From the NCBI GenBank assembly GCA_903958565.1, contig CAJBTJ010000163.1, positions 1-33,587 of the forward strand: a DNA stretch of 33,587 bases, given 5' to 3'. The position numbers and the translations under genes are program-made. The notes below the pieces were generated by a model that saw only the letters and a list, made by a program, of their open reading frames with translations, ran no database searches and was not told the DNA's origin. This document shows positions 7,419 through 18,808 of this stretch, one piece after another. Origin of the DNA: an uncultured beta proteobacterium (lineage in GTDB: Bacteria > Pseudomonadota > Gammaproteobacteria > Burkholderiales > Burkholderiaceae_B). Within the stretch, counting starts at the first letter, position 1; the number at the start of each line of letters is the position of its first letter.

Positions 7419-7526
7419 GCTTTTGAGGAGCGTTGCGACGGAACGGTGTTGGTTGTCCCGATATTCCGCCAGGCTCAAAAGCTTCCACGTTACCGTCGGC
7501 GAACCCGACCTTAACGGCGCTCACCC
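7419..7526 (+). ncRNA. S-adenosylhomocysteine (SAH) riboswitch
   Basis: P1 GCTTTTGAG (7419-7427)/CTCAAAAGC (7474-7482), perfect 9 bp; conserved GAGGAGCGTTGCGACGG core; pseudoknot GAGCG (7428-7432)/CGCTC (7518-7522) with AACGGCGCTCACC; directly upstream of ahcY. Confidence 0.93.
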
Positions 7527-7613
7527 AATCCTGTCTTTGCAGCGTTTGTGGTGGTGCCGTATCAATACAGCCCCTCTGACGTTGCAAGCAGGCCTAACGG
7601 AGCCTACTTAGCC

Positions 7614-9029
7614 ATGAACGTCGTTAAAGAAAAATTTGCTGATTACATCGTCGCCGACATCGGTCTTGCCGATTTTGGCCGTCGCGAAATCCAGATCGCT
7701 GAAACTGAAATGCCCGGCCTGATGGCCACCCGCGAAGAGTTCGCGAAGACCAAGCCGCTTAAAGGCGCCCGCATCACTGGCAGCCTGCACATGACCATTC
7801 AAACGGCCGTGCTGATCGAAACGCTGCAAGTGCTTGGCGCTGAAGTCCGTTGGGCTTCGTGCAACATCTTCTCGACCCAAGACCACGCTGCTGCCGCGAT
7901 CGCCGCAACAGGCACACCCGTTTTTGCCAAAAAAGGTGAGAGCTTGGTGGAGTATTGGGAATACACCCACAAGATTTTTGAGTGGCCAGGCGACAAGCAA
8001 GCCAACATGATTCTGGATGACGGTGGCGACGCAACGTTGTTGCTGCATCTGGGCACCAAAGCGGAGTCCGATCTTTCCGTGCTGAACAATCCCGGCTCGG
8101 AAGAAGAAGTCGTCTTGTTCGCCGCCATCAAGGCGCAGATCAAGAAAGATCCAAAGTGGTACTCCACACGTCTGGCACAGATCAAGGGCGTGACTGAAGA
8201 GACCACGACGGGTGTGTTGCGCTTGTATCAAATGTCCAAAAAAGGCGAGCTTGCCTTTGCAGCAATCAACGTCAACGATTCAGTCACCAAGTCGAAGTTC
8301 GATAACTTGTATGGCTGCCGCGAGTCCTTGGTTGACGCGATCAAGCGCGCAACCGATGTGATGATTGCAGGCAAGATTGCGGTTGTGGCCGGTTACGGCG
8401 ATGTGGGTAAGGGTTCGGCTCAGGCGCTGGCTGCGTTGCGTGCACAAGTTTGGGTCACAGAAATCGATCCAATCTGCGCCCTGCAAGCCGCGATGGAAGG
8501 CTTCAAAGTCGTCACCATGGAAGAAGCTGCTGACAAAGCGGATATTTTCGTGACAGCGACGGGTAACTACAACGTGATCACACGTGCACACATGGACCGC
8601 ATGAAAGATCAGGCCATCGTTTGCAATATCGGTCACTTCGATAATGAAATCGATGTGGTGGGCATTGAGAATCTTCAGTGGGAAGAGATCAAGCCACAGG
8701 TCGATCACGTGATCTTCCCGGACGGCAAGCGCATCATCTTGCTGGCGAAGGGTCGTCTGGTGAACTTGGGCTGCGGTACGGGCCACCCATCGTTTGTGAT
8801 GTCGTCTTCGTTTACGAACCAGACGATCGCGCAAATCGAATTGTTCAGCCGTAACGAGCAGTACAAATCGGGCCAGGTTTACGTGCTGCCTAAGCACCTC
8901 GACGAAAAAGTTGCGCGTTTGCACCTCAAGAAAATTGGCGCCAACCTAACGTCACTGACTCCGCAGCAAGCGGCCTACATTAGCGTGAAGCAAGAAGGGC
9001 CTTTCAAGGGCGACGCATATCGCTATTGA
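7614..9029 (+). CDS. ahcY: Adenosylhomocysteinase
   Basis: [59 protein letters not shown]-terminal KGDAYRY. Confidence 0.98.
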
Positions 9030-16728: not shown

Positions 16729-18501
16729 TTAACGGCGACCGCCGTCAAAGGTAAAGCCGCGACGTGCACCGGCTGCGGCACGTGGCGCGCCTGGACGCGG
16801 AGCGCCTGTGCGAGCCGGACCGTCACCGCGAGGTGCGAAGGTCTTGCCGCCCGGAGCGCCCGCACGTGGTGCGAACTCACGGCTTGGGCGCGCTGACTTA
16901 CCTGCGTAGGCAGGACGGTCAGACGGCGCACGATCTGCGCGTGGGCTGGCGTAAGGATTGTCGCTGCGTGGTGTGCGCTCGCCACTAAATGGCTTGTCGC
17001 CACGCGGTGCAAAAGCAGGCTTGTCTCCACGAGGGGCGAAAGTACGTTCGCGATCGCCGCTGAAGGGACGGTCACCACGTGGGGAGTCGCCGCGTGGAGC
17101 GAAAGCTGGCTTATCGCCGCGAGGGGCAAAGGCTGGGCGGTCACCGCGAGGCGCATCACCCCGGTACCCTTCGCCTCTGGGGGCATAGGCCGGTTTGTCG
17201 CCACGCGCGGCGTAAGCGGGTTTGTCACCACGAGGCGCAAAGGCGCGCGGCTCACGTGCGCTATAGCGGTCGTTGCTGCCAGCGCTACGGTCGTTGCTCC
17301 AACGCCCACCTTTTTTGCCACCAGCACCACGCGAAGCACCCTCTGGGCGTGCGCTTGGTGTGCGTTGTGGCTCGAGTCCGGCAATGACGTCGGACTGAAT
17401 GGTGTAGCCAACGAAATGCTCGATACGGCGAACTTTGTGGCGCTCGCTGTGAACGGCTAACGTGAAGGCAGAGCCGTCACGACCTGCACGACCGGTACGG
17501 CCAGTGCGGTGAATATAGTCTTCGGGCTGCATTGGTAAGTCGTAGTTAATGACGTGGCTGATGCCCTGGACGTCGATGCCGCGTGCGGCGACGTCGGTAG
17601 CGACTAATACACGCACACGTCCATCCTGAACCTCAGAAATCGTACGTGAGCGTTGCCGCTGGTTCATATCACCATGAAGCGCCATTACTGAAAAACCTGA
17701 GTCGGCAAGGTGCTCGGCCAAGTCATCCGCGCCACGCTTGGTCGCCGTAAAGACAATCGCCTGATCCATTGAGGCGTCGCGCAAGAGGTGATCGAGCAGG
17801 CGAAGTTTGTGACCTGAGTCGTCCGCATACAGCAGGCTTTGGGTGATGTTGGCATGGCGATCGGACTGACCGGCCATTTCAATACGCTGTGGGTCGCGCA
17901 TCATGCGTGCGGCCAGCTTGGCAACCGTGCCGTCAAGTGTGGCCGAAAACAACAGTGTCTGACGTGACTCTGGGCAGCGATCGACGATGGTGTTGATGTC
18001 GTCGATGAAACCCATGTCTAACATGCGATCGGCTTCGTCGAGGACGAGAGTGTGCACGGTGGATAAGTCAACACGGCGCGCTTGCAGGTGATCAAGCAGA
18101 CGGCCTGGTGTGGCCACCAACACATCGACGCGACGTGACAGCGCTTTGAGCTGCGCACCGTAAGGCATACCGCCGACAACGGTGGCGACGCGGAGGTCGT
18201 CGAGGTTGCTGCCGTATAGTTCCGTGGCTTCGCTGACTTGCAAGGCGAGTTCACGGGTAGGGGTCAACACCAGCACTTGCACGCCACGACCTTTGTTCGC
18301 CGGTTTGTGGGCGATGCGGTTCAGTGCGGGCAACATGAAGGCAGCCGTTTTGCCGCTACCGGTTTGGGCGGACACCATTAGGTCGGCGCCGGCGAGTGCG
18401 GCAGGAATTGCCGACATCTGGACGGGCGTCGGCGTGGTAAAGCCGGTGCGTTCAATGGAAGATAACAAAGCGGGGGCTAGCCCCAACGAATCGAAGGACA
18501 T
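16729..18501 (-). CDS. DEAD-box ATP-dependent RNA helicase (RhlE-like) with long RGD/PAF repeat C-terminal tail
   Basis: MSFDSLGLAPALLSSIERTGFTTPTPVQMSAIPAALAGADLMVSAQTGSGKTAAF, VLDEADRMLDMGF, SATLDG, VATDVAARGIDV, HRTGRTGRAGRDG. Start at 18501 with AAAGGAAAG SD. Confidence 0.95.
   Translation of the reverse strand: MSFDSLGLAPALLSSIERTGFTTPTPVQMSAIPAALAGADLMVSAQTGSGKTAAFMLPALNRIAHKPANKGRGVQVLVLTPTRELALQVSEATELYGSNLDDLRVATVVGGMPYGAQLKALSRRVDVLVATPGRLLDHLQARRVDLSTVHTLVLDEADRMLDMGFIDDINTIVDRCPESRQTLLFSATLDGTVAKLAARMMRDPQRIEMAGQSDRHANITQSLLYADDSGHKLRLLDHLLRDASMDQAIVFTATKRGADDLAEHLADSGFSVMALHGDMNQRQRSRTISEVQDGRVRVLVATDVAARGIDVQGISHVINYDLPMQPEDYIHRTGRTGRAGRDGSAFTLAVHSERHKVRRIEHFVGYTIQSDVIAGLEPQRTPSARPEGASRGAGGKKGGRWSNDRSAGSNDRYSAREPRAFAPRGDKPAYAARGDKPAYAPRGEGYRGDAPRGDRPAFAPRGDKPAFAPRGDSPRGDRPFSGDRERTFAPRGDKPAFAPRGDKPFSGERTPRSDNPYASPRADRAPSDRPAYAGKSARPSREFAPRAGAPGGKTFAPRGDGPARTGAPRPGAPRAAAGARRGFTFDGGRR
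16985..17250 (-). repeat. Degenerate repeat encoding (F/Y)APRGDKPA units in the helicase tail
   Basis: YAARGDKPAYAPRGEGYRGDAPRGDRPAFAPRGDKPAFAPRGDSPRGDRPF...TFAPRGDKPAFAPRGDKPF. Confidence 0.9.
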
Positions 18502-18503
18502 GA

Positions 18504-18660
18504 CTTTCCTTTTGGCCAGATAGTGGCCATTTGACGCAGCCCGGATATTGTTTGACCGGCGGTAGTCGGTTGAATCGAGCATCGTGCCGACCGAATCAAC
18601 CGAACGTCTGGGCTGGAGATCCATCTATCTGGATCGCACTAGCTGCCCACGAAAGGAAAG
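18504..18660 (-). promoter_or_regulatory. Structured 5' leader of the DEAD-box helicase mRNA with SD-sequestering potential
   Basis: Nested perfect inverted repeats 18504-18512/18652-18660 (9 bp, includes SD), 18516-18523/18625-18632 (8 bp), 18537-18542/18610-18615 (6 bp), 18566-18573/18596-18603 (8 bp). Confidence 0.65.
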
Positions 18661-18808
18661 GAGGTCAGGAATCGATGATGTGTGGTCAGTGACCAGTTTT
18701 GCCTACTACGACTAACGTTGGCAAGTCTGTGTATGAACCGCTGCAATTTTTTGCAGAGCCCGAATACTAACCTATTTTTTAGGGTGGGTAAACCCTTTAT
18801 TTGGAAAT

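Follow-up and report, generated by a model that had tools for sequence, protein, structure and literature searches.

DEAD-box helicases influence how RNA folds, how ribosomes are assembled and how cells adapt to cold, and a number of them are believed to set their own amount. Control through leader structure is familiar from other genes of E. coli: RNase E, an RNA-metabolism enzyme, is under feedback control by the structure of its own 5′ UTR (rne), and in the S15-type ribosomal-protein operon leaders a pseudoknot beside the Shine-Dalgarno (SD) controls translation of an RNA-binding protein. Both differ from the leader described here, which is built on two helices that we call S1 and S2. The S15-type leaders have another gene, other strands and another distribution, and no rRNA-like site was detected in our leader; the rne feedback, which is cited in PMC5874925, works through mRNA decay, its gene and fold differ, and our leader has no Rfam match. 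Two precedents concern RNA helicases themselves. In Caulobacter crescentus, expression of rhlE is higher in an rhlE mutant and a 186-nt 5′ UTR matters, which suggests autoregulation (PMC5472812). Our leader resembles that 5′ UTR in being long and structured and in preceding an RhlE-type helicase, and a relation to cold would be a further likeness, although the Caulobacter system is alphaproteobacterial, no S1 or S2 is described for it, and the two are compared by description rather than by sequence (PMC5472812). In Synechocystis, the RNA helicase CrhR is subject to temperature-linked control of its own expression, which is partly post-transcriptional (PMC3485376). The likeness is that of an RNA helicase governing its own expression with temperature, which for our locus is a proposal; the crhR system is, however, cyanobacterial, and the passages of PMC3485376 covered define no leader element.

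Our locus lies on the minus strand of the window, by which we mean the whole stretch of 33,587 nucleotides analyzed. The helicase protein begins MSFDSLGL, its ATG occupies 18501-18499, and the SD, AAAGGAAAG, ends 2 nt 5′ of that ATG. Among the NCBIfam matches of the helicase CsdA was the best, and none scored above its own equivalog cut-off. The RG-rich tail (16729-17400, minus strand) is a series of degenerate APRGDKPA-like repeats. The features to which we refer are as follows.

16729-18501, minus strand: DEAD-box RNA helicase of the RhlE/CsdA kind, 590 aa with an RG-rich tail (open reading frame and NCBIfam)
18504-18512, minus strand: S2 3′ strand, the SD AAAGGAAAG, paired with 18652-18660 in the minimum-energy fold
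18513-18529, minus strand: local hairpin UGGCCA/UGGCCA directly 5′ of the SD (compensatory cells in the genus)
18566-18603, minus strand: central hairpin UCGGUUGA/UCAACCGA, arm 4 of the original prediction, invariant in the genus
18580-18592, minus strand: S1 3′ strand GGUCGG (18592-18587)-CA-CGAUG (18584-18580), inside the loop of the central hairpin
18609-18649, minus strand: local stem UGGGC/GCCCA (18649-18645/18613-18609) closing a hairpin GAUCCA/UGGAUC (18635-18618), with compensatory changes in the genus
18652-18660, minus strand: S2 5′ strand, the anti-SD CUUUCCUUU, arm 1 of the original prediction (cognate versus swapped duplex energies)
18663-18677, minus strand: S1 5′ strand CAUCG (18677-18673)-AUUC-CUGACC (18668-18663), near-invariant in Alcaligenaceae and found again in orthologue leaders of the order
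18684-18757, minus strand: variable 5′ part of the leader, genus mean pairwise identity 0.42, with insertions
18764-18792, minus strand: putative promoter, TTTACC (18792-18787), 17 nt, TAGTAT (18769-18764)

The original prediction, made from this one sequence, was of four nested perfect inverted repeats forming one closed structure whose outermost arm pairs with the SD. All four arm pairs are indeed present on the minus strand (arms 1 to 4: 18652-18660/18504-18512, 18625-18632/18516-18523, 18610-18615/18537-18542 and 18596-18603/18566-18573). They are unlikely to have arisen by chance: nested perfect arms totaling 31 nt were equaled in 1 of 1000 dinucleotide-preserving shuffles (shuffle mean 11.6 nt), and the predicted folding energy of the 221-nt leader, -73.8 kcal/mol, is lower than that of shuffles (z = -2.4). 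The single closed structure did not hold up, since the relatives support only arms 1 and 4 as conserved pairings, something that one sequence alone could not reveal. The bases of arms 2 and 3 form local hairpins in the relatives, and both arms are absent outside the genus. Arm 2 (CCAGATAG/CTATCTGG) is rivaled by the hairpins GAUCCA/UGGAUC and UGGCCA/UGGCCA and is disrupted in divergent genus members; it has four double-sided compensatory cells in the genus, against seven and five, respectively, for these two hairpins. Arm 3 is rivaled by the local stem UGGGC/GCCCA, which has two such cells. Equivalents of the UGGCCA/UGGCCA hairpin are present in family leaders, and the stem of the central hairpin (arm 4) is common in the family and gone from some lineages, the compact leaders included.

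Within the genus (Zwartia-like Alcaligenaceae) the 180 nt 5′ of the ATG have a mean pairwise identity of 0.90, compared with 0.42 for the leader farther 5′ and 0.535 for third codon positions. The promoter-like pair is kept in most genus genomes, with an identity of 0.70 versus 0.42 for the stretch just 3′ of it; it was not listed by a consensus promoter scan. From this pair we would expect the transcript to start near 18757, which would place every 5′ arm within the mRNA, as the original prediction needs.

The pairing of arm 1 with the SD is borne out. S2 is part of the minimum-energy fold, and among 48 divergent Alcaligenaceae leaders, across which a helicase leader with a sequestered SD is kept, its cognate duplexes average -15.5 kcal/mol compared with -12.9 ± 0.39 when partners are swapped, a result that none of 20,000 permutations matched (p < 1e-4). 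Covarying variants include the change from CCUUU/AAAGG to CCUUG/CAAGG (L074-L076) or to CCAUU/AAUGG (L102), and in L097 S2 is lengthened to 13 bp. To judge from these comparisons, S2 is maintained by lineage-specific compensatory change. Outside Alcaligenaceae the complementarity of the SD to the 5′ arm is weaker (-9.1 versus -7.8, p = 2e-4), so that pairing of the SD within a conserved helix is found in Alcaligenaceae and less clearly elsewhere. The fold predicted for the window leader carries S2 on into the start codon (AUCGA/UCGAU, GAC/GUC); these added pairs are not conserved across the family. As a separate observation, the anti-SD arm is lengthened in L097, L114, L116, L217, L218 and L222, so that its match takes in the 3′ arm of the hairpin preceding the SD as well, which would make that hairpin and S2 mutually exclusive in leaders of this type.

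A second pairing, S1, had gone unnoticed in the original prediction and is, on the comparative evidence, the most widely conserved pairing of the leader. It joins CAUCG-n-CUGACC (18677-18663), directly 5′ of the anti-SD, to GGUCGG-n-CGAUG (18592-18580); these are the two most conserved segments in the family and they are mutually complementary. Both strands are kept in leaders that lack the hairpin stem (L071, L226, L233, L236), and S1 is present in most of the betaproteobacterial orthologue leaders examined. The B/B′ arm is paired in 99% of cases. In fixed register the outermost pair is paired in 135 of 136 leaders versus 123.6 ± 1.0 after shuffling (C-G in 127, A-U in 5, U-A in 2, U-G in 1, one mismatch), counts that represent sequences rather than independent events, as the A-U and most U-A cases come from one genus; L244, of a further lineage, has U-A. 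In some lineages the A helix is replaced outright (UGUC/GACA, AGUC/GACU, UUCG/CGAA), and in other families of the order variants with GGUUAG or GGUUGG as 3′ strand and CUGACC, CCGACC, CUAGCC or CUGACU as 5′ strand are nearly always fully paired. Double-sided changes are few because S1 is mostly invariant. Swap tests of the A arm that left the register free gave no significant result (p about 0.24, then 0.13); short strands always find approximately 4 bp, so the fixed-register test was adopted, a switch made after the first result had been seen. An alignment of the S1 3′ strands at the A′ arm as short fragments failed. Given that the looser test was not significant, we regard S1 as a real conserved pairing that is strongly but not exhaustively supported by these comparisons. 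There is modest support for an order-level stem around the S1 3′ strand (ACCGG/CCGGU and variants, 105 of 140 versus 98.5 ± 2.7).

Two further observations concern S1 and its surroundings. In part of genus g39 (L221, L230, L235, L240) CUGACC is doubled and CAUCG and CGAUG have been lost together, while the same leaders keep CUGACC and GGUCGG (GGUCGA in L240). A number of order-level leaders (L287, L292, L316, L320, L324 and others) have a GCGC...GCGC pairing 3′ of S1, not found in the window, which could represent an additional helix in the wider family.

How widely is the leader distributed? A covariance model trained on genus sequences only (R1) found the leader in 188 of the 269 family genomes, spread over 32 of 43 genera and with rarely more than one copy in a genome, and the helicase start (MSFxxLGL) lies just 3′ of nearly every R1 locus fetched. 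Contigs with the same leader are named Zwartia, Sheuella, Jezberella, Achromobacter, Bordetella, Pusillimonas and relatives, all Alcaligenaceae. Three MAG contigs titled ‘Bordetella parapertussis’ or ‘Candidatus Methylopumilus’ (L134, L202, L150) have a leader of the Zwartia type, and their labels look wrong. None of the ten genomes of family genus g2 matched R1, and the three of these checked all lacked a close helicase orthologue (best 48% identity). At the level of the order, 89 of 130 sampled genomes have a helicase orthologue, and the S1 strands were found in approximately 67 of 86 leaders, a count that leans towards S1 since the search list consisted of known B-strand variants. For a second model (R2) we used 44 leaders from outside Alcaligenaceae and specified no structure other than S1. 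It found matches in 57 of 120 genomes of the order, and 55 of the 59 matches are just upstream of the helicase orthologue; the independent part of this support is smaller because many matched genomes had supplied training sequences, and outside the training genomes approximately 15 order genomes match, upstream of a DEAD-box helicase gene. The three R2 matches in other gammaproteobacterial orders are likewise each followed by a DEAD-box helicase gene. A phylum-wide R2 scan gave matches in 3 of 249 genomes, which we attribute to chance as none precedes a helicase, and the E. coli deaD region had no R2 match. R2 gave 30 bits to a Bordetella-group leader (L063) and a weak 8.9 bits to the window leader, which thus joins the wider family via its Alcaligenaceae relatives and S1. 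Both models link the element to the helicase gene and, at the level of sequence, the comparison establishes conservation of the leader, the complementarity of S1 and S2 and the tie to that gene.

The strands occur in the order A, B, anti-SD, B′, A′, SD, so that S1 crosses S2, and the complementarity of these two crossing conserved helices, the arrangement of a pseudoknot, is kept in relatives. Nested folding makes S1 and S2 exclusive, and S1 is missing from the minimum-energy nested fold of the complete leader. When the nascent RNA was folded in this manner, S1 reached a probability of approximately 0.8-0.9 once its 3′ strand existed in six of seven leaders (in L122 it was at most 0.38), and it was lost when the SD strand appeared in the compact leaders L071 and L233, and at closure of the hairpin stem in most long leaders. 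The summed energy of S1, S2 and the hairpin approximates that of the nested optimum before any pseudoknot penalty. Exclusion in nested folding together with this equal energy makes a docked pseudoknot and a switch both possible.

We conclude that the leader most likely acts in cis to control translation of the helicase mRNA and that it probably controls the amount of helicase, because the SD is hidden and the core pairing is conserved across betaproteobacteria; that it is a conserved translational-control leader built on both S1 and S2 we hold with good confidence. In the mechanism we favor, translation would be controlled by S2, with S1 as a conserved modulator. Pairing of 18652-18660 with 18504-18512 would hide the SD and block ribosomes, giving the off state, and S1, in which the bases at 18663-18677 meet their partners at 18580-18592 in the central hairpin loop, would tune the formation of S2. 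Because the SD is transcribed only well after both strands of S1, S1 is able to form ahead of S2, and the two helices may then either lie docked against each other in a pseudoknot or compete. The weakest step is that the helicase should unwind short helices such as S1 and so hasten refolding to the form with the SD hidden. If it does, excess helicase would repress its own synthesis and cold would delay that repression, a proposal encouraged by the Caulobacter rhlE and crhR precedents. We put forward this helicase and cold feedback, drawn by analogy, only tentatively, and are a little more doubtful still of its full form, a helicase-sensing switch in which S1 forms first with the SD open, until the helicase unwinds S1 and S2 masks the SD.

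Of the other explanations, the one that survives best is that the conserved strands form an operator which mainly binds the helicase, a ribosomal protein or an Hfq-like factor, their complementarity being secondary. The S1 strand sequences are more conserved than pairing alone demands, and other helicases are autoregulated (PMC3485376). Yet the strands co-vary in several lineages (AAUCG/CGAUU and UAUCG/CGAUA, besides the three replaced A helices given above), the S1 linkers vary in both length and sequence, and no rRNA-like sites were found, matches of the window leader to E. coli 16S, 23S and 5S rRNA being no longer than those of shuffles, on which ground mimicry of rRNA as a bait for the helicase was rejected. 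We consider an operator of this kind unlikely. Separately, the compact leader L233 has a 13-nt sequence, CGGTTGTCCCGGT, in common with E. coli 23S rRNA (shuffled maximum 11) that is absent from the window leader.

Less probable again is an RNA thermometer, in which temperature alone, with no protein, would open and close S2. The position of the SD within a helix and the frequency of cold regulation among DEAD-box helicases of this kind (PMC5472812) would suit it. S2 is, however, part of a fold of -74.7 kcal/mol at 37°C that is predicted to become more stable in the cold (10-37°C), which makes it seem unlikely that S2 simply melts at physiological temperatures, and a thermometer would have no need of the conserved S1 strands.

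A metabolite riboswitch, with S1 and the central hairpin as aptamer and S2 as expression platform, is very improbable: a conserved domain with an SD-masking helix fits the general layout, but the downstream gene is solely the helicase rather than one of metabolism or transport, S1 and S2 account for almost all the conserved bases, and no Rfam aptamer matched. The window does contain an S-adenosylhomocysteine (SAH) riboswitch elsewhere (7419-7529, plus strand; 54 bits against Rfam RF01057), immediately followed by an open reading frame (7548-9029) that reads as adenosylhomocysteinase, an ordinary arrangement in betaproteobacteria. Coding conservation, through an upstream reading frame, an attenuation leader or an N-terminal extension, is scarcely credible, for although an in-frame extension is open in the window (a 631-aa reading frame from 18624), the core ATG falls in the three frames 32, 39 and 31 times over 102 leaders, is in frame and open in only 22 and is missing from compact leaders, and genus leader lengths (212-218) change in single-base steps.

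The original prediction had not recognized the fold, and no Rfam 15 family matches it: for the window leader none reached the gathering threshold, the best at E up to 5 being a 12-bit chance match, and for 20 order-level leaders there was none up to E 0.5. The leader is undescribed in the open literature searched, which included PMC4603805, PMC2864571, PMC8632094 and PMC11109978. A table in PMC2864571 names Burkholderiales-1, an old candidate structured RNA that has no Rfam accession, is also from Burkholderiales and is unassigned there; it could be the same RNA as our leader or a different one, the portion of that text covered giving neither its sequence nor its gene context. SD-masking structured leaders are a known kind, and what appears to be new is the S1/S2 architecture with a DEAD-box helicase across betaproteobacteria.

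For the present helicase gene, neither Rfam 15 nor the open papers searched contain a conserved RNA element for its control, and the leader, which recurs before this one orthologous gene in many betaproteobacterial lineages, would add an RNA family to genome annotation. It also provides defined strands for asking whether the RNA on which a helicase acts serves to measure that helicase. If the helicase-sensing switch is true, the mRNA would measure helicase activity and turn off its own translation, translation would persist in the cold, where refolding is slow, and the design would be common to betaproteobacteria, with S1 as its conserved sensor.
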